NCBI RefSeq assembly: GCF_021295395.1
Contig: NZ_JAIWOU010000001.1
Span: 1,865,001-1,929,000 of the forward strand
DNA length: 64,000 nt
Direction of reading: 5' to 3'
Source: Komagataeibacter sp. FNDCR2
Lineage (GTDB): Bacteria > Pseudomonadota > Alphaproteobacteria > Acetobacterales > Acetobacteraceae
Part shown: positions 20,762-29,489 of the stretch, piece after piece
How the letters are laid out: each line of letters opens with the position of its first letter
Numbering within the stretch: position 1 is the stretch's first letter
The notes under the pieces: model-generated
Seen by the model: the letters and a program-made list of their open reading frames with translations, nothing else
Databases searched by the model: none
What the model was told of the DNA's origin: nothing
Made by a program: the position numbers and the translations under genes

Positions 20762-20849
20762 GCGAGCTTGGCGGAATGGTAGACGCACGAGACTTAAAAT
20801 CTTGCGCCCGCAACAGGGCGTGCGGGTTCGAGTCCCGCAGCTCGCACCA
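20762..20849 (+). tRNA. tRNA-Leu (UAA)
   Basis: An 88-base tRNA with CCA encoded. The acceptor stem GCGAGCT pairs with AGCTCGC (20839-20845), with discriminator A 20846 and CCA 20847-20849. The anticodon stem CGAGA/TCTTG encloses the loop CTTAAAA, giving anticodon UAA (Leu). A long variable arm (class II, as leucine tRNAs require) and the T loop GGTTCGAGTCC follow. It lies immediately upstream of the AT-richer block at 21.2-29.5 kb, a typical neighbour of acquired DNA. Confidence 0.96.
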
Positions 20850-21211: not shown

Positions 21212-22411
21212 TTGGCCACTCAGCCCATTGACCTCAAGGATGACAGTTCGGCATTCCAGGCGTCCAGTACGACCATTCGCAGTCTTGCCCCACACCGCCC
21301 CGATCATATTGATATTCCTGTGGCACTGCCCCGGTTGCCCACGACGGATTGCATAACACCGTACCTGCGCCAGATCGACCAGAACCGTTGGTACACCAAT
21401 CAGGGGCCCCTGTGCGATGCCCTGCAGGACCGGCTGGGCCAGTTCTGGGGGGTGGGATATGAGCGGGTCGCACTTGTAACCAACGCAACCACCGGGCTGA
21501 GCCTTGCCCTTCGGGCGCATGGCATTCCGGCCGGTACACGTTGCCTTATGCCATCATGGACATTTACAGCCAGTGCGGCCGCTGTCGTGGGCGCGAACCT
21601 GCGGCCGCATTTTGTCGATGTCTGCCCTGCCACATGGTGCCCTGATCCAGCCCGGATTGAACATCTGGCCAAAGCCGATGATGTAGGGGCCATTTTCATC
21701 GTCGCTCCGTTTGGCGCGCCCCTTGACCTTGACCTGTGGGACGGCATAGCCGAACGCACGGGCCGCCCGGTCATTATTGATGCCGCGGCCGCCTTCGACA
21801 CCCTGCGCGACCATGGACCCATGCGCCCCCGACGCAGCACAATTGTGGTCAGCTTGCATGCCACCAAGGTTTTTGGCCTTGGCGAAGGCGGTGCGGTGCT
21901 GACACATGACCCTGCCCTGGCCGAACATGTGCGTACACTGGCCCGTTTTGGATTTGCGGGCAGCCGATCAGCCCAATACCCGGCCATGAACGCCAAAATT
22001 TCCGAATACACGGCCGCAGTTGGACTGGCGGGGCTGGATTACTGGGAACCGATGCGCGCCCGGTGGCGCAATGTCACGGAACTCTACCGCAGGGCCCTAC
22101 CCTCCAGCGTGATACTTCCGCCGGATTTCGGCAATAACTGGGTGTCGGCCACATTGACCGCCATCTGCCCCACGGATGCCGGACCCGTAACCGGATACCT
22201 CGCCGCGCATGGTGTGCAGACGGTTTCATGGTGGGGAACAGGCTGTCATACCCAGCCGGCATATGCGCACTGTACCCGTGATCCCCTGCCTGTTACCGAA
22301 GACTATGGTCGGTGCTCTGTCGGGTTGCCGTTCTGGCAGGATTTAAGCGCCGAGCAGATTACCTATGTATGCGACCTTCTTAACAAAGCACTGAAGCTGG
22401 GAAATACATGA
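21212..22411 (+). CDS. DegT/DnrJ/EryC1 family sugar aminotransferase
   Basis: A ~399-residue PLP-dependent aminotransferase of the DegT/DnrJ/EryC1 family, which aminates nucleotide-linked keto-deoxysugars. The PLP lysine is in VVSLHATKVFGLGEGGAVL; IIDAAAAF holds the Asp that contacts the PLP ring nitrogen; the N-terminal part has the usual YTNQGPLCDALQDRLGQFWG and the substrate-side NATTGLSLALRAHG. The start is uncertain: I chose TTG 21212, preceded by AAAGAGA, but the frame opens at TTG 21152. It leads the sugar cluster and, with RfbA/RfbB, could make a dTDP-amino-dideoxyhexose. The C-3 or C-4 position of amination cannot be told. Confidence 0.88.
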   Translation: MATQPIDLKDDSSAFQASSTTIRSLAPHRPDHIDIPVALPRLPTTDCITPYLRQIDQNRWYTNQGPLCDALQDRLGQFWGVGYERVALVTNATTGLSLALRAHGIPAGTRCLMPSWTFTASAAAVVGANLRPHFVDVCPATWCPDPARIEHLAKADDVGAIFIVAPFGAPLDLDLWDGIAERTGRPVIIDAAAAFDTLRDHGPMRPRRSTIVVSLHATKVFGLGEGGAVLTHDPALAEHVRTLARFGFAGSRSAQYPAMNAKISEYTAAVGLAGLDYWEPMRARWRNVTELYRRALPSSVILPPDFGNNWVSATLTAICPTDAGPVTGYLAAHGVQTVSWWGTGCHTQPAYAHCTRDPLPVTEDYGRCSVGLPFWQDLSAEQITYVCDLLNKALKLGNT

Positions 22412-22469
22412 TTTCCTGAAATCTGTTTTTGCCTGACCTGACACTATTTTCTACACGGATCTTTCAAGC

Positions 22470-23681
22470 ATGTCTTCTCCCCGCAATATCGTCGCATTTG
22501 TAGGTGAAAACGAAAACAATATTCTCCGCCAGTTCAGTCATGATTTCATGTCCTTTCTCGACCCTTCCAAGTTCAGGGGGCATGTGGTCAACCTGCGGGG
22601 TCCGAACTGGAGTGATCAGCTTAACGGCCTGATAAACGAGGGTATTGCCTTGGGGTGGTCCCAGGCCGGCATTGGGGCCTCTCTGGAAATCAATAACGAA
22701 ATTCTATGGGATACGCTGAAAGTCCCGTTTGTTTCCGTTATGGCGGACTCACCGTGCTGGTGCGTGCGGAACCACTTCATCCGCTCACGTTATGTCGCCA
22801 ATGCTTATGTATTTCCCGAGTGGCTGAACGTGCAGAACCGCTTTGTACGCTCTCCCCAGCTTTCCACACTTATCGAGCATCTTGGCATTATCCCCAACCT
22901 GAAGCGGGACGCCATCGCGTGGCGCGACCGGCCGCAGCGCATGGTGTTTGTCAAGACTGGCGGCAACCCGGAACTGCGCCGCGAAAACTGGCGGCACCTG
23001 CCCCCCCGCTGGCGCGCCATACTGGAAGACGCCAGCAGCACCGCCATAAAGCAGCCAACAGGCGATATTACGGACACCTATGTCAGCGCCTGCGCCAGCC
23101 ACCATCTTTCATCCGAGCACAGGCTCGATATTTTTTATAGCCTGATGTATGAACTTGACCTGTATGTGCGTGAATATCGCATGAATACCGTGGTCAGGGC
23201 GCTGCTGGACCTGCCGGTGGACATTTACGGGCGTGGCTGGGACCATCTGGCCTCTCTGGCCACAAAGGCACGGTTCCATCCTGCTTTTGACGCAACCCTT
23301 CTTTCCAGCGTTTACGCTGGCACGCAGTTCCTGCTGAATACAACGCCCAATTTTGCCTCCAACATTCATGAACGTGTCGGACAGGGGCTGGATTCACGTT
23401 GTGTAGTCGTGTCCGACCAGAACAGGTTTTCCAGGGAGAATCTGTCGCATATCCCAACTTTTTACGGCTTTGACAGCACGGATCCAGCCCTGAAGGACCA
23501 GTTGCATTCCCTGTATTATACCCAGAAAGATTATACAGAAGAAACGCAGATCGGTGTTGATTACATTGCCAGGAACTTTGACTGCTCGAGATTCATGCAA
23601 TCTTTGCTTGATATAGCGCATGAGATCCAGATATCCGCCCAGTTTGCGTCTGTATTTCCGCCAGCACTGCTGTACAGTTGA
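22470..23681 (+). CDS. CgeB-like (GT4-type) glycosyltransferase
   Basis: A 403-residue protein with the layout of CgeB/YkvP-type glycosyltransferases (two Rossmann-like halves). The C-terminal half contains LLNTTPNFASNIHERVGQGLDSRCVVVSD, matching the family pattern N.tp....l..RvfEalaaGg..vsd, followed by FYGFDSTDPALKDQLHSL. The N-terminal half is divergent (VAFVGENENNILRQFSHDFMSFL). Base composition is AT-richer than the window average. It presumably transfers the sugar made by this cluster, but acceptor and sugar are unknown. No membrane segment is evident. Confidence 0.7.
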   Translation: MSSPRNIVAFVGENENNILRQFSHDFMSFLDPSKFRGHVVNLRGPNWSDQLNGLINEGIALGWSQAGIGASLEINNEILWDTLKVPFVSVMADSPCWCVRNHFIRSRYVANAYVFPEWLNVQNRFVRSPQLSTLIEHLGIIPNLKRDAIAWRDRPQRMVFVKTGGNPELRRENWRHLPPRWRAILEDASSTAIKQPTGDITDTYVSACASHHLSSEHRLDIFYSLMYELDLYVREYRMNTVVRALLDLPVDIYGRGWDHLASLATKARFHPAFDATLLSSVYAGTQFLLNTTPNFASNIHERVGQGLDSRCVVVSDQNRFSRENLSHIPTFYGFDSTDPALKDQLHSLYYTQKDYTEETQIGVDYIARNFDCSRFMQSLLDIAHEIQISAQFASVFPPALLYS

Positions 23682-23740
23682 ACCAGCGCGTCCAATGTGC
23701 CTTTGTCCTTGTATCGAACCTGGGCAGGAAAAAGGAACGG

Positions 23741-23770
23741 TTGACAATATCAAGAATTATTCAATAATAT
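23741..23770 (+). promoter_or_regulatory. Sigma70-type promoter before the ACP-KAS III genes
   Basis: A perfect -35 TTGACA (23741-23746) and a -10 TAATAT (23765-23770) with an 18-base spacer stand 47 bases before the ACP start, in a conspicuously AT-rich 135-base gap. An overlapping TATAAT at 23768 would give a 21-base spacer and is less likely. This suggests that the ACP-to-rfbA genes form their own transcript. Confidence 0.65.
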
Positions 23771-23816
23771 AATTCCATCTTTTTACAAATAACAACGCAC
23801 CCCGAGATTAAATATT

Positions 23817-24041
23817 ATGCAAAACCTATACGAAGGCCTTGCCGAAATTCTGGAAGTTCCCGTTGAACAGATCACGCCAGAATTCAGTCTTGCCGGGCAT
23901 GAGTGGGATTCAATGGCGATCATTTCCTGTGTTGCCCTGATTGATGAAGTCTCCGGTCATATTGTATCCGGCTCGGAACTGGCGAAATGCACATCCGTAG
24001 CCGACATTCAAAAACTTGTCCCCTCGCTAAGGGCAGAATAA
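23817..24041 (+). CDS. Dedicated acyl carrier protein
   Basis: A 74-residue acyl carrier protein. The phosphopantetheine site is Ser32 in HEWDSMAIIS (family DSL/DSM), in a four-helix layout starting LYEGLAEILEVPVEQITPEF. It is not the housekeeping AcpP, being AT-richer, less acidic and placed directly before a KAS III and an SDR reductase. This suggests that it carries a small beta-keto or beta-hydroxyacyl group made by those enzymes for transfer to a sugar. It has its own likely promoter 47 bases upstream. Confidence 0.9.
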   Translation: MQNLYEGLAEILEVPVEQITPEFSLAGHEWDSMAIISCVALIDEVSGHIVSGSELAKCTSVADIQKLVPSLRAE

Positions 24042-24053
24042 AGGCTTTCCGTC

Positions 24054-25073
24054 ATGTCGAAATGTTCCGTCAAAGGTGTGGCGCCCCGAGGTATTGTCTG
24101 CGCCCTCCCTGCAAACCGTGTGGAGAATGACTATTTCGCGGGACGTTTTGATGAAAAAACCATTAAGGATGTTACAGCACTAACCGGTGTATCCACCCGC
24201 TACGTGGCAGCACCCGACCAGACGGCGGGCGACCTGTGCCTTGCCGCAGCCGAGCGCCTTCTGGAAGACCTGCAATGGCCACGTGAAAGCGTGGATGCGT
24301 TGATTTTCGTCTCCCAGACCCCAGACCAGCGTATGCCTGCGACAGCCTGCATTCTGCACGGGCGGCTTGGCCTGTCCAAGAACTGTCAGGCATTCGACGT
24401 GGGGCTGGGATGCTCGGGCTACGTTTATGGGACGTGGCTGGTTGCGGCCCTTATGGCTGCTGGCGTGCGCCGTGTCCTGCTGCTGGCGGGAGATACCAGC
24501 AGCCGCATGATCAACCCGGACGACCGAAGCACGGCCATGCTGTTTGGCGATGCCGGGTCCGCCACGGCCTTTGAACATGACCCCGACGCCGCGCCAGCAT
24601 ATTTTGACCTTGGGACAGATGGCAGCGGCGCCAACTTCCTGACTGTCCCCGGTGGTGGCTTCCGCCCTTCTGATAAACAGGATCCCAAGGCTGATACGCT
24701 GCATATGGACGGTAGTGCCGTTTTCGGCTTTACGATCAGCACCGTACCCAAACTGATCAAGGCCATACTGGTGCAGGCCGATCTCACGAAAGACAATACT
24801 GATCTGTTTGCCCTCCATCAGGCCAACCGCTTCATCCTTCAGCATATTGGCAAAAAGCTTGGTCTTTCCGCAGAGCAGCTTCCGATCAATATTGATAAGT
24901 TCGGCAATACCAGTTCCGCTTCCATTCCGTTGCTGATCTGCACGGACATGGCCAAACGGATAACAGCACAACCCATGACCGTGCTCATGGCCGGATTTGG
25001 TGTAGGTCTGTCCTGGGGGGCTGCCATATTCAAAGATGTCCAGTTGCAATGCGCGTCGGTAATAGAAATATGA
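24054..25073 (+). CDS. 3-oxoacyl-ACP synthase III-like condensing enzyme
   Basis: A 339-residue thiolase-fold enzyme of the KAS III (FabH-like) family. The catalytic triad is complete: Cys120 in DVGLGCSGYVYG, His255 in LFALHQANRF, and Asn285 in DKFGNTSSASIP. It would condense an acyl-CoA with malonyl-ACP. It sits 12 bases after the ACP gene and overlaps the SDR gene by four bases (ATGA), so all three are likely coexpressed. A second FabH embedded in sugar genes points to making a short beta-ketoacyl-ACP for a special purpose, not general fatty acid synthesis. That role is inferred. Confidence 0.9.
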   Translation: MSKCSVKGVAPRGIVCALPANRVENDYFAGRFDEKTIKDVTALTGVSTRYVAAPDQTAGDLCLAAAERLLEDLQWPRESVDALIFVSQTPDQRMPATACILHGRLGLSKNCQAFDVGLGCSGYVYGTWLVAALMAAGVRRVLLLAGDTSSRMINPDDRSTAMLFGDAGSATAFEHDPDAAPAYFDLGTDGSGANFLTVPGGGFRPSDKQDPKADTLHMDGSAVFGFTISTVPKLIKAILVQADLTKDNTDLFALHQANRFILQHIGKKLGLSAEQLPINIDKFGNTSSASIPLLICTDMAKRITAQPMTVLMAGFGVGLSWGAAIFKDVQLQCASVIEI

Positions 25074-25825
25074 TTTTTACGTCCTCGGCGCTTGAGGGAC
25101 GCACCATTCTGGTTACCGGTGCGTCCTCCGGACTGGGGCGGGCAACCGCACACCTGATTGCCCAATGCGGTGGGCGGGTTATTGCAACCGGACGCAACGG
25201 GGAACGGCTGGCCGACACGCTTGCGGCCCTGCCCGGCTCCGGGCACACCATGATTGTCGCAGCGCTGGAAACGGCCGAAGGCACAACGGACCTTGTTGTA
25301 AAAGCCGCCAGGAATGCCAACGGGCTTGATGGCGTATTCCACTCCGCCGGTCTCGAACTCAGCCGCCCGGCCCGGCTTGTAAAACAGAAACAGATCGACG
25401 CTGTTTTCAATGCGGCCCTTTTTGGCGCGATCGGCATTGCGGCCGCAGCAGGCAAGCGCGATGTATTTCACGCTGGCAGTTCCATCGTTTTCATGTCCTC
25501 TGCGGCGGCGCATCGCGGCCAGCAGGGGCTAAGTACCTATTCCGCCGCCAAAGCCGGCATCGAGGGGCTGACCCGCTCCCTTGCGTGGGAGCTGCGTTCC
25601 ATCCGGGTCAATGCCATTGCGGCTGGCGGTGTAGAGACCGAAATGCATCACCGGCTGTTAAACGGTCTTTCCGAACATTCGATATCCGATTATGAACGCG
25701 CACATGCACTGGGTTTTGGCAAGCCGGAGGATGTAGCCTCAGCCGCCCTGTTCCTGCTTTCTCCCGCAGCGGCATGGGTTACTGGAGCCGTCTGGGCCGT
25801 GGATGGCGGCTACACAGCGGGATAA
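25070..25825 (+). CDS. FabG-like short-chain dehydrogenase/reductase
   Basis: A 251-residue classical SDR. The NAD(P) motif TGASSGLG starts near residue 17, the catalytic Ser lies in VFMSSAAAH, and the YSAAKAG motif holds the Tyr and Lys; the C-terminus ends VDGGYTAG, as in FabG proteins. The most likely role is reduction of the beta-ketoacyl group on the neighbouring ACP to the beta-hydroxyacyl form. The start ATG 25070 overlaps the KAS III stop; an in-frame start at 25049 would overlap that gene further. The next gene begins five bases after its stop. Confidence 0.9.
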   Translation: MIFTSSALEGRTILVTGASSGLGRATAHLIAQCGGRVIATGRNGERLADTLAALPGSGHTMIVAALETAEGTTDLVVKAARNANGLDGVFHSAGLELSRPARLVKQKQIDAVFNAALFGAIGIAAAAGKRDVFHAGSSIVFMSSAAAHRGQQGLSTYSAAKAGIEGLTRSLAWELRSIRVNAIAAGGVETEMHHRLLNGLSEHSISDYERAHALGFGKPEDVASAALFLLSPAAAWVTGAVWAVDGGYTAG

Positions 25826-25830
25826 CGGAC

Positions 25831-26451
25831 ATGACGGAGTATATTCTTGTTGGCGGGGGCGGTTTTGCGCGGGAACTGTACGACTGGTTTACCCCATCAC
25901 TGACCGCCTCGGGCAGCCGTTTTATCGGGTATCTGGATGATGGCTCCGCCCCTATGCAGGCCTATGGGCATACGCTCCCGCAGCTAGGCCGCATTGTTGA
26001 TTACAGGCCCAACCCCGCCCACCGTCTGGTCATGGCAGTCGGGTCGCCCGCAGGCAAACAGAAAATTACAGGCATACTGGGCACACAGCAGTTTGCATCG
26101 CTCATTCACCCCACCGCATGGGTTTCTGCCTCTGCCTGCATCGAGACGGGAGCTGTCATCGGGGTTTTTGCTGATATTTCAGCCAATGCAACTGTACGGC
26201 AATTTGCGACAGTCAATGGCTATAGCAGTGTTGGCCATGACGCGGAGCTGGGTCCCTATGCCACACTGTCCGGTTACGTGGATCTTACAGGAAACAGCAA
26301 GGTTGGCACGGCCTCCTTTATCGGTTCCGGCGCCCGCCTGCTGCCTCATGTACATGTGGGAGAGCGCTGCACCGTGGGGGCAGGTTCCATAGTAGTGCGT
26401 TCCACCCAGAATGACGTGACCATGTATGCTCCTCCAGCCCGCAGGTTGTGA
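25831..26451 (+). CDS. Left-handed beta-helix sugar acyltransferase (PglD/NeuD-like)
   Basis: A 206-residue protein of the PglD/NeuD sugar O- or N-acyltransferase family. The N-terminal Rossmann-like domain (EYILVGGGGFARELYDWF) binds the nucleotide sugar. The C-terminal hexapeptide repeats form the left-handed beta-helix (IETGAVIGVFADISANATV, then SVGHDAELGPYATLSGYVDL). PglD enzymes acetylate amino groups of UDP-4-amino sugars from acetyl-CoA. In this operon, with its own ACP, KAS III and reductase, the donor may be a beta-hydroxyacyl thioester. That is inference. It begins five bases after the SDR stop and overlaps the Rieske gene. Confidence 0.87.
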   Translation: MTEYILVGGGGFARELYDWFTPSLTASGSRFIGYLDDGSAPMQAYGHTLPQLGRIVDYRPNPAHRLVMAVGSPAGKQKITGILGTQQFASLIHPTAWVSASACIETGAVIGVFADISANATVRQFATVNGYSSVGHDAELGPYATLSGYVDLTGNSKVGTASFIGSGARLLPHVHVGERCTVGAGSIVVRSTQNDVTMYAPPARRL

Positions 26452-27506
26452 TGTTCATGCCTCCTGAAATTGATGGTTATCTGGCCCGTACATTCTGGCA
26501 TTGCGTCGCACACCGGTCCGAACTGCCAAATGACCGGGACTTTCTGCGGCTTGAATGGATACTGGGCGATCTTATTTTATATAACGACATGGGCACCATT
26601 ATTGCATTCGACAATATATGTCCCCATCGCGGCAATCGGTTCCTGCCAGAGCATGAGGGCAACGCACCCCTTTCATGCACATATCATGGCTGGGGATACA
26701 GGGGAGGCAAACTCCGCATTCCCAAACCGGATTCCTACAAGCCATGCGATCTGAAGCGCGTACGTCTCAATAGCTTCCATACGGCGTGGTGCGGGGATTT
26801 TCTGTTTGTCGCCATTGCCCCACGAACGGATCTGGCTACGCAACTGGGTGGACTGGCGGATATTCTGACAGGCATGTCGCACGATATTTCCAGACGACAT
26901 GCACGTATTGGCTATCCCTATGAATGCCAGTGGCGTGTTGCCGTGGAAAACGCACTGGAACCGGACCATGTGCCTTTTGTACATTCCGATACGCTCGGCT
27001 CCCTCCAGCTAAAACCTGGCCATAACGCGTATTATGAGCGTAATTCGGTTTTAAATGCGCCCATAGGAAACGAGCGCATAAAGCGTGGATTGAACAGAAT
27101 TTCCCGTTTCTTTGACGTTCAGCATAACGAAAAGTCATATATAGCGATTTTTATATTTCCATTCTCTTTTTTATCAAGCACATTTGGCTATACTTATTCC
27201 CTGCAGAATTTTTTTCCGTCCCGTAACGGACGGCATACGCATTTTACGACCCGCATGTTCCATTCCAGACTCACATCAACAGGGGAAAACGAGGCTATCA
27301 TTAAGCCTTTTCTTGCGGGCGTAGAAAAATTAAACTCTCAGGTATTTCAGGAAGATAGCGAAATATGTAAAAATATTTCGCCTGATTTCCCACTGGATGG
27401 CATGAACAGTATCCTCTCGACCACCGAAGAAAAGATTGCCCATTTCCGCAAATGTATTGAAGACATCAAAAAAGAACAGTCCCCAAGTCATACAGCTCAC
27501 GCGTGA
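26451..27506 (+). CDS. Rieske-type non-heme iron oxygenase
   Basis: A ~351-residue Rieske oxygenase. The [2Fe-2S] site is CPHRGNR with SCTYHGW (Cys57, His59, Cys76, His79), and the mononuclear iron site is in [13 protein letters not shown] (HxxxxH). The C-terminal catalytic domain is unlike the well-known aromatic dioxygenases and AT-rich. No ferredoxin or reductase gene lies nearby, so electrons must come from elsewhere. Position inside the acyl-sugar operon suggests hydroxylation or desaturation of the sugar or its acyl group. GTG 26448 (overlapping the previous stop) and ATG 26457 are alternative starts. Confidence 0.88.
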
Positions 27507-27528
27507 CAGACGCATAGGCAGATCGGCA

Positions 27529-28617
27529 ATGCGTATTCTCCTGACCGGCGGGTGTGGTTTCATCGGTTCCGCGGTAATCCGGCATCTCATCGGCACGACC
27601 CGCCATAGCGTGCTCAATGTTGACTGTCTGACCTATGCGGCATCACCCGAAACGGTCCAGGGCGTCCGGGGGGACGGTCGTTACATATTTTCGCGCACGG
27701 ATATTACGGATACGGCCGGTCTGGAGCGCCTGTTTGCTGATTTCCAGCCCAACGCCGTCATGCATCTCGCGGCCGAAACCCATGTGGATCGCTCCATAGA
27801 CGGGCCGGATGTATTCATACGCACCAATATCACCGGCACCTACTCCCTTCTGGAGGCGGCACGCAAATACTGGCAGACGCTTGGCAGGGCGGAACGTGAC
27901 GCCTTTCGCTTCCATCATATCTCCACCGATGAGGTATTCGGCGCCCTGGGCCCCACCGATCCGCCCTTTACCGAAACCACGCCCTACGACCCGCGCAGCC
28001 CCTATTCGGCCAGCAAGGCCGCGTCGGATCATCTGGTGCGGGCGTGGCATCATACCTTCGGGCTTCCCACCTTCGTTACCAATACGACCAACAATTATGG
28101 TCCATGGCAGTTTCCCGAAAAGCTGATCCCCCTGACAGTCATCAACGCCATTGAAGGCCAGGAACTCCCGTTATACGGCACGGGTGCGAATATACGGGAC
28201 TGGCTGTTCGTGCAGGATCATGCCAGGGGGCTGGTTCAGGCCATGGAACAGGGGCGCCCCGGTGAAACCTATATTCTGGGCGCGCGCCAGCCGCGCAGTA
28301 ATCTGGAAGTGGTCCGGACCATCTGTAGGGTGCTTGATGAACTGCGCCCCGACCCCGCAGGCCCCCGCGAACGCCTGATCCGCTTTGTTGCTGACCGTCC
28401 CGGGCATGACTTCCGTTATGAAATCGACCCGTCATATACCCAGGAACGTCTGGGCTGGACCGCGACGCACAGTTTTGAAGACGGTATCCGCCGTACGATC
28501 ATGTGGTATCTGGACAATCGCCACTGGTGGGAGGCCATTCGTGCGCGCCGCTATGCTGGCCACAGGCTGGGCCAGAAGAATTGTGCCGTCATTGCCGAAG
28601 GAACAGTGAATTCATGA
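27529..28617 (+). CDS. rfbB: dTDP-glucose 4,6-dehydratase
   Basis: A 362-residue extended SDR that converts dTDP-glucose to dTDP-4-keto-6-deoxyglucose with bound NAD+. [20 protein letters not shown] is the Rossmann motif, [15 protein letters not shown] and the [11 protein letters not shown] segment (catalytic Thr-Asp-Glu) are RfbB signatures, and [22 protein letters not shown] holds Tyr and Lys. The start ATG 27529 is 22 bases after the Rieske stop. It is coupled to rfbA (ATGA). rfbC and rfbD are not here, so the ketosugar more likely feeds the DegT aminotransferase than rhamnose synthesis. Confidence 0.97.
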
Positions 28618-29489
28618 AGGGTATCCTTCTGGCCGGGGGAACGGGAACCCGCCTCTATCCCCTCACGCTTGCAACCAGCAAACAGTTGCTGCCGATCTAT
28701 GACAAGCCGATGGTCTATTACCCTTTGTCCACGCTGATGCTGGCGGGGATCCGGGATATCATGATCATCAGTACGCCGCAGGATCTTCCCCAGTTCCAGC
28801 GCCTTCTGGGTGATGGCGGGCAGTTTGGATTACGGATCGAATACCGTGTGCAGGCCGCGCCAAACGGTATTCCGCAGGCGTTCCTCATCGCTGAGGACTG
28901 GCTGGCCGGGAGCCCATGCGCGCTGGCGCTGGGTGACAACCTGATTTTCGCGGACCGCCTGAGCACCATGCTCCAGCAGGCCGCAACGCAGGATCAGGGC
29001 GCCACCGTATTCGCCTATCAGGTGCGCGACCCGGAGCGTTATGGTGTCGTCACCTTCGATGCGAACGGCAAGGCCACGGAAATCATAGAGAAACCTGCCT
29101 CTCCCACCTCAAGCTGGGCGGTTGTCGGCCTGTATTTCTATGACAGCCGCGTTCTGGACTTTGTGCGTACTTTACGGCCCTCGGCGCGGGGGGAACTGGA
29201 AATCACGGATCTGAACCGCGCCTATCTGGAAGATGGCAGCCTGAGAGTACAGCAACTGTGCCGGGGGTGCGCATGGCTGGATGCCGGCATGCCTTCCAGC
29301 CTTCTGGAAGCCAGCCAGTTCGTCCACACCATCCAGACCCGACAGGGTATGCTGGTGGGCAGCCCGTCTGAAATTGCCTTTCGGATGGGCTATATTACCG
29401 CCCGACAGCTTGAGGAACACGCCCTGCGGATGGGCAAGACGGAACTGGGCCATATCCTGCTTTCCCTTGCCCGCCAGCAGGAACTATAG
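28614..29489 (+). CDS. rfbA: Glucose-1-phosphate thymidylyltransferase
   Basis: A 291-residue nucleotidyltransferase making dTDP-glucose from glucose-1-phosphate and d[21 protein letters not shown] is the signature nucleotide-binding loop, followed by [20 protein letters not shown], the metal/substrate LALGDNLIF, and the terminal [18 protein letters not shown]. Length matches RmlA/RfbA. Its start overlaps the rfbB stop, and a bidirectional terminator follows 18 bases after its stop. It supplies the first activated sugar for the cluster. Confidence 0.97.

Follow-up and report, generated by a model that had tools for sequence, protein, structure and literature searches.

A conserved Rieske oxygenase gene and its KAS III subtype in a viosamine-type sugar island of Komagataeibacter sp. 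FNDCR2

The genome of Komagataeibacter sp. FNDCR2 (3.29 Mb in five contigs) carries, in the 64,000-nucleotide window analysed here (contig C1:1865001-1929000), an island of nine intact, compactly arranged + strand genes at window positions 21212-29489. They encode, in order, a DegT aminotransferase, a glycosyltransferase candidate, an acyl carrier protein (ACP), a KAS III enzyme, a short-chain dehydrogenase/reductase (SDR), an acyltransferase, a Rieske oxygenase, RmlB and RmlA. At its core this set matches a viosamine island already described in Pseudomonas syringae, to which it adds a conserved, so far unexplained element: the Rieske oxygenase and its KAS III subtype. The features, in window positions, are as follows.

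20762..20849, + strand: tRNA-Leu (taa), found by ARAGORN; left edge of the island.
21212..22411, + strand: DegT/DesI-like pyridoxal phosphate aminotransferase, predicted dTDP-4-keto-6-deoxyglucose 4-aminotransferase (PF01041, 211.9 bits; open frame from 21152).
22470..23681, + strand: putative glycosyltransferase, weakly CgeB-like, 403 amino acids (aa), predicted sugar transferase (PF13524, 14.7 bits, below the cut-off of 25).
23817..24041, + strand: acyl carrier protein with D31-S32 (PF00550, PP-binding, 22.5 bits; cut-off 20.8).
24054..25073, + strand: KAS III of the 'KASb' subtype, Cys120-His255-Asn285 (two Pfam domains over cut-off; subtype from a tree).
25049..25825, + strand: SDR, predicted 3-oxoacyl-ACP reductase, VioR-like, YSAAK motif (family matches).
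25831..26451, + strand: VioB/PglD/NeuD-type N-acyltransferase, GHD motif (TIGR03570, 151.3 bits; cut-off 160.8).
26448..27506, + strand: Rieske non-haem iron oxygenase (Rieske 44.2 bits, Ring_hydroxyl_A 36 bits, both over cut-off).
27529..28617, + strand: RmlB, dTDP-glucose 4,6-dehydratase (TIGR01181, 445.9 bits; cut-off 365.1), YSASK motif.
28614..29489, + strand: RmlA, glucose-1-phosphate thymidylyltransferase (TIGR01207, 432.2 bits; cut-off 360.65).

The first-pass annotation, made from the letters alone, had named these nine families, and family matches and catalytic motifs bear it out; the motifs were searched for in seven of the nine proteins and all were present, and the RmlA nucleotidyltransferase motif was found as well. 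The weak case is the glycosyltransferase: the gene is there, but its assignment as CgeB-like stays below the PF13524 cut-off, as does that of its Acetobacter syzygii homologue (74% identity, 16.7 bits). The tight spacing noted from the ACP gene onward, with overlaps or gaps of at most 22 nucleotides, holds by count. The ACP and KAS III genes are 12 nucleotides apart, the KAS III and SDR genes overlap, and 5 nucleotides separate SDR and acyltransferase if the ATG at 25831 is the start. Acyltransferase and Rieske genes overlap by 4 nucleotides, as do RmlB and RmlA, and 22 nucleotides lie between Rieske and RmlB given the ATG at 27529. Starts of the DegT, SDR, acyltransferase and RmlB genes are uncertain by some codons.

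The island has a GC content of 0.562, compared with 0.649 for the window, and was probably acquired horizontally. When same-genus loci were compared with window positions 10001-45000, similarity stopped at the tRNA-Leu in all ten fetched, 0-19 bases past the tRNA in nine and 3 bases before its end in one. In these loci the stretch seen beyond the tRNA covers about 3 to 15 kb, and in all ten it differs from that of the window, marking a variable site. In 6 of 18 other genomes of the genus, the contig with this tRNA carries 23-36-base fragments of the tRNA-Leu 3' end at a distance of 2.3-15.6 kb. A recent element with a repeated tRNA end was considered here and rejected, as the window holds no second copy of the tRNA-Leu 3' end; integrases were sought only via open reading frame (ORF) starts.

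Among NCBIfam models the DegT protein matches DesI best (177.1 bits against a cut-off of 650), and Lys219 is present. Entry 2po3, which we take to be DesI, ranks second in a PDB search (E 4.2e-33), and the A. syzygii homologue is 76% identical. DesI is a C4 aminotransferase. Amination at C3 (Qdt/Fdt-type) was rejected, since no 3,4-ketoisomerase match was found among the nine genes, to which this search was confined, and the best aminotransferase model is DesI. In the acyl module, the ACP is 81% identical to that of A. syzygii and 40% to that of Burkholderia glumae, with corresponding values of 86% and 59% for the SDR; the nearest solved structure to the acyltransferase is VioB (7txp, E 1.4e-16).

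The KAS III enzymes of these islands fall into subtypes. In a tree of 59 rows, from which the short pieces of the B. glumae record and of locus L047 were left out and in which long branches were flagged and deep joins are unsure, the window and A. syzygii enzymes group together (support 100/99) inside a 27-row group that contains KASb (93/88); a separate group of 25 is made up of the VioS-like rows (96/97). The 27 rows include a third subtype, 41-44% identical to KASb references, from the Pseudomonas loci L134, L138, L140 (a cut stretch), L141 and L145. The best PDB match of the window KASb is 4efi (323.5 bits, the next entry scoring 202.1), and that of the B. glumae KASa is 3GWA (617.6 bits, the next entry scoring 214.5). 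The entry 3GWA is BURPS1710b_0096 of B. pseudomallei, and it and 4EFI have been described as FabH orthologs/in-paralogs (PMC3561365); the present matches suggest that they belong to this sugar pathway and not to fatty-acid initiation. For the window enzyme a role in initiation was rejected: another KAS III, presumably the housekeeping FabH, lies at C1:1078285 and is far off in the tree.

The Rieske protein has the cluster residues C58/H60/C77/H80 and an iron site E171-x2-H174-x4-H179 with D303. In an alignment of 16 rows, C58, H60, C77, H80, H174, H179 and D303 are invariant, giving the motifs of a Rieske non-haem iron oxygenase; this alignment and the AlphaFold model built on it leave out L047, whose frame is broken in a metagenome-assembled genome (MAG), and the B. 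glumae record. The predicted fold is that of a complete oxygenase (pLDDT 83.2, pTM 0.86). Its closest fold is the carnitine monooxygenase CntA, at 18-20% identity, and the best profile matches include carnitine and glycine betaine monooxygenases.

We scanned GTDB genomes with a two-row Rieske alignment and two exact peptide patterns and obtained 46 loci. Sixteen, a lower bound for the family, form a clear group at E 6e-79 or better with 38-73% identity (L035-L050, where L labels denote fetched loci of related genomes, L034 being the B. glumae record and L035 A. syzygii 9H-2). The remaining 30 encode more distant Rieske proteins at E 1e-11 and weaker, hence the family is sharply bounded. It spans alpha-, beta- and gammaproteobacteria with all ligands kept, and was found in 1 of 398 genomes of a phylum sample, the source genome itself. 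A tblastn search of plasmids gave one strong match, in B. glumae BGR1 (44% over 90%), the next being about 26%. Literature searches among open-licence papers returned no description of a Rieske oxygenase in viosamine-type islands; the Rieske gene described in B. thailandensis is grouped with halobenzoate dioxygenase genes, and term counts found neither flagellin nor glycosylation in a paper on Drosophila colonisation and flagellar genes. The first-pass annotation had named the gene, but that it is a conserved, unexplained part of such islands was not visible from one stretch.

Across the 16 loci the contig with the Rieske gene also carries KASb in 15, the acyltransferase in 15, the SDR in 14, the ACP in 13 and KASa in 13. 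The locus without KASb (L036) is a 4-kb contig that ends before that gene; Rieske lies there with the acyltransferase, and another contig of the genome holds two KAS III matches of this kind. L046 starts inside KASb, L037 is without an ACP match and A. syzygii is without KASa. Of 65 genomes in a Burkholderia sample, the same five have KASa and Rieske matches, so that the module is not general to the genus. Each of the five also has a second KAS III, 39-43% identical to the KASa query (E limit 1e-60), which starts about 1.3 kb away from the first; in all four that were fetched (L146-L149) it is KASb, at 62-66% to a KASb reference.

A Pseudomonas sample had VioA in 44 of 298 genomes, at 45 places, and all 45 stretches were fetched. 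KASb (at least 63%) and the Rieske family (at least 55%) occur together at three of these (L101, L102, L135), and with these thresholds no place has just one of them. Two of the three are genomes already seen in the GTDB scan (L101 and L102 are those of L044 and L050, as the cut contig L104 is that of L041), leaving L135 as the independent case. Five other places (L103, L106, L107, L108, L110) combine VioA with a VioT-like gene, KASa, acyltransferase and SDR, while neither KASb nor Rieske is present in the fetched stretch, which makes KASb and Rieske look like an add-on. Four of them (all except L103) have the published P. syringae gene order, by which their KASa is of the VioS type. L105 has a partial KASa, and most other VioA places have a different acyl module or none recognisable.

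Two further kinds of gene were seen in these islands. Distant Rieske oxygenases, 22-27% identical to the family references, are encoded in L134 (5471-6595) and L138 (13372-14589 and 16502-17689) beside VioA, KAS III, SDR, acyltransferase and what read as flagellar genes; a Rieske gene has thus probably joined such islands more than once. An adjacent methyltransferase and PhyH-type dioxygenase are common to nine Rieske loci from Pseudomonas and Paraburkholderia (L041-L045 and L047-L050; for example L043 7007-8430 and L047 11113-12504). At E 1e-20, loci L101-L149 (49 in all, some too short to reach the site) gave no match to this pair; its methyltransferase had none in A. syzygii, and the window is likewise without it.

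Taken together, these data are consistent with a model, to which we give about an even chance as a whole, in which the island makes an acylated viosamine-type sugar, the Rieske enzyme hydroxylates its N-acyl chain and flagellin is the likely acceptor. RmlA and RmlB would supply dTDP-4-keto-6-deoxyglucose, and the DesI-like DegT enzyme would aminate it at C4 to dTDP-4-amino-4,6-dideoxyglucose (dTDP-Qui4N, viosamine). KASb, the dedicated ACP and the SDR would build a short 3-hydroxyacyl-ACP, most simply 3-hydroxybutyryl, and the VioB-type acyltransferase would place the acyl group on the 4-amine. By analogy with CMAH, the Rieske enzyme may add one hydroxyl to the N-acyl chain, before or after its transfer to the sugar, and the adjacent glycosyltransferase would pass the sugar to an acceptor on the cell surface, for which the flagellin of contig C3 is the likeliest candidate. 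Families, catalytic residues, gene order and co-occurrence are read directly from the sequences, and the route to N-(3-hydroxybutyryl)viosamine is established in a relative, P. syringae. C4 specificity in this strain, acyl length, hydroxylation and its site, the role of the glycosyltransferase and the flagellin target are what we infer from them. With a C4 acyl group the predicted residue masses are 231.11 Da without and 247.11 Da with the extra oxygen; for a C6 group from two extensions they are 275.14 and 291.13 Da.

The same route from a 4-keto sugar through 4-amination, a hydroxyacyl-ACP and N-acylation to transfer had been proposed at first pass; family matches and the P. syringae mutants and mass spectrometry (MS) agree with it, though its core had already been published. 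If hydroxylation takes place as proposed, the Rieske enzyme would be a bacterial counterpart of CMAH, and presence or absence of its gene would be a genomic marker for a 16-Da difference in the glycan. Flagellin glycans shape motility and host recognition.

Several findings weigh against this model. The acyl group need not be 3-hydroxybutyryl, because the Acetobacteraceae clusters have KASb only and P. syringae VioS is, by gene order, of the KASa type. DegT is just 31% identical to B. glumae VioA. The modelled Rieske fold does not point to acyl hydroxylation, CntA acting on quaternary amines, and no ferredoxin or reductase is encoded among the nine genes. In the tree, the KAS III of the Pseudomonas loci L141 and L145 falls on the KASb side, yet these loci show no Rieske match, so such an enzyme can occur without Rieske; L040, a Rieske locus, shows no acyltransferase or SDR match in 21 kb. 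Other modifications accompany Rieske in the nine islands with the methyltransferase and PhyH genes. For the glycosyltransferase candidate, a structure model from two sequences failed (pLDDT 31.4), alongside the Pfam score below cut-off. Its homologues occur in 19 of 397 genomes of the family, and in seven of the ten loci fetched from these (L165, L166, L168-L172) a window-like DegT gene adjoins it with none of the tested acyl-module genes and none of the tested flagellar genes within 20 kb. In an eighth (L173) the DegT-family gene is closer to VioA. In those Acetobacteraceae, where DegT and the glycosyltransferase form a unit of two genes, the sugar may carry no acyl group or receive one from other enzymes.

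The acceptor is the part of the model with the strongest competitor. The strain has its own flagellin (C3:32534-32944, by domain match), encoded among other flagellar genes together with a 466-aa protein that has a glycerophosphotransferase-like domain. Contig C3 is 111 kb long, and its flagellar part (C3:20000-39999, L082) matches a K. saccharivorans plasmid at 80.8% over 25% of 20 kb. Flagellin is favoured because the A. syzygii, Burkholderia and Paraburkholderia clusters sit beside flagellar genes, and this neighbourhood in relatives makes it the likely acceptor here. Flagellin is also present in all 16 genomes behind L035-L050, a weak point as most such genera are flagellated. The alternative is that lipopolysaccharide or exopolysaccharide, the target named at first pass, carries the product as an N-(hydroxyacyl) amino sugar in place of flagellin, which we consider possible but rather unlikely. 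It draws on the module or its parts lying, by ORFs read by eye, among polysaccharide-type genes in L037, L040 and L135, which means that the acyl module is not bound to flagellin, on the Acetobacteraceae glycosyltransferase-DegT pairs away from tested flagellar genes and on the island and flagellar genes being on different contigs in this genome; all three count against a flagellin target. On the other side, the cluster of the nearest relative, A. syzygii (73-86% identity), lies in a flagellar locus, and the one Rieske-bearing genome among 19 of the genus, the source genome, is flagellated where flagellin occurs in 2 of 19, a weak observation expected by chance 2 times in 19.

The Rieske enzyme could instead act on the ring of the same acylated viosamine, or demethylate or dehydrogenate it, rather than hydroxylate the acyl chain. 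We regard this as unlikely, although the closest fold and profiles include carnitine and glycine betaine monooxygenases and ring modification is known in this sugar class, with VioM acting at O-2 and nine Rieske islands sharing a methyltransferase. Against it, the presence of Rieske follows that of a KAS III subtype, and in both the window and A. syzygii Rieske is present but the shared methyltransferase is not.

A bolder extension of acyl hydroxylation, in our view doubtful, is that KASb and Rieske form an accessory module that defines a new class of poly-hydroxyacyl amino sugar, of about 247.11 Da here and in A. syzygii and about 291.13 Da where KASa and KASb occur together. In species with both enzymes, Pseudomonas graminis DSM 11363 among them, two rounds of extension would precede hydroxylation, giving Qui4N with a trihydroxyhexanoyl group. 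The flagellin glycan of B. pseudomallei is given as 291.1 Da with its structure unsettled in the review PMC3958885, which in its description of the glycan names acetyl, formic acid and possibly acetamidino as parts, together with a dependence on O-antigen genes. That list does not obviously fit trihydroxyhexanoyl-Qui4N, and the formula behind the 291.13 Da is equally that of rhamnose plus Qui4N, which weighs against the C6 reading. B. pseudomallei has a close relative of B. glumae KASa (3GWA, 617.6 bits); of that locus the KAS III alone was seen.

It is improbable that the island makes a plain 3-hydroxybutyryl or acetyl viosamine with the Rieske gene as a passenger. The core set is a known pathway without Rieske, and five Pseudomonas islands, L103 among them, lack it. 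However, the gene keeps all its ligands across three proteobacterial classes, lies in 16 of 16 loci with KASb or, at a contig end, with the acyltransferase, and shares the 4-nucleotide overlap with the acyltransferase gene in the window. A chance cluster is ruled out by the family matches, by the collinear arrangement of the nine genes and their catalytic motifs, and by A. syzygii, where seven of the genes stand in the same order at 73-86% identity.

That relative is the closest of the known systems. The first-pass annotation had proposed a search for the seven-gene order in other genomes, and A. syzygii 9H-2 (NZ_BAMZ01000008) has it identically from DegT to Rieske, with a single KAS III as in the window. 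Where the window has RmlB and RmlA, A. syzygii has an FkbM-type methyltransferase followed by fliL, fliM, flagellin and flgC/flgB-like genes.

The flagellin locus of B. glumae BGR1 (NZ_DQ996271) shares an aminotransferase (VioA in B. glumae), KASb, ACP, SDR, acyltransferase and Rieske (44%) with the window and lies beside fliC and fliD. Its order is flagellin, FliD, FliT, a TPR protein, then VioA, KAS III, ACP, second KAS III, SDR, acyltransferase and Rieske. It differs in having KASa as well, a TPR protein with a family-41 glycosyltransferase domain, and no RmlA or RmlB match in 22 kb. In this record the second KAS III (L034 17415-18514) carries no annotation and has an interrupted frame; a genome of the same genus has an open copy. 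The arrangement VioA-KASa-ACP-KASb-SDR-acyltransferase-Rieske after fliC, fliD and the TPR glycosyltransferase recurs: besides B. glumae, three further Burkholderia genomes have it, as do two contigs of Paraburkholderia, one of them a MAG with broken frames. No description of the product of the B. glumae locus was found in the literature searches.

CMAH is a Rieske enzyme that turns N-acetyl- into N-glycolylneuraminic acid on the sugar nucleotide, and we know of no case of a Rieske enzyme acting on a sugar N-acyl group in bacterial glycan assembly. Its Rieske domain is reported in PMC9219854; the likeness to the window enzyme is an analogy of the proposed reaction only. CntA, at 18-20% identity to the window protein, differs in its substrate, a quaternary amine.

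The functional model is the viosamine island of P. syringae pv. tabaci 6605, with vioA, vioM, vioT, vioS, vioB, vioR and acp (PMC3927599). In that work, vioA, vioS, acp, vioR and vioB supply dTDP-N-(3-hydroxy-1-oxobutyl)viosamine, VioM modifies the sugar ring by methylation at O-2 and VioT transfers the sugar to flagellin glycans; vioA, vioB, vioT, vioR and vioM rest on mutants and MS, and vioS and acp were assigned by homology (PMC3927599). Flagellin of the deltavioR mutant was without the sugar, deltavioM gave a 231-Da residue, and virulence required glycosylation with the modified-viosamine trisaccharide (PMC3927599). The computed mass of a Qui4N(3-hydroxybutyryl) residue, 231.11 Da, equals that of the residue in deltavioM.

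An aminotransferase, KAS III, ACP, SDR and VioB-type acyltransferase are common to both islands, with an N-(3-hydroxyacyl) dTDP-viosamine as the product predicted for the window set, and the window thus holds together the dedicated acyl genes of the modified-viosamine (mVio) trait. The P. syringae island has no Rieske gene, and its KAS III is of the KASa type by the gene order of L106, L107, L108 and L110. RmlA and RmlB belong to the window island, whereas in P. syringae they are outside the seven ORFs. In place of VioM and a 1,173-aa VioT the window has Rieske and the 403-aa glycosyltransferase, and none of its nine proteins has a methyltransferase or Glycos_transf_2 domain, the latter being present in the VioT-like protein of L043. 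The earlier statement that no described pathway has this exact set holds solely through the Rieske gene and the glycosyltransferase, the core being that of the P. syringae island. The window island works like a viosamine island but, lacking VioT and VioM, is not classed as one.

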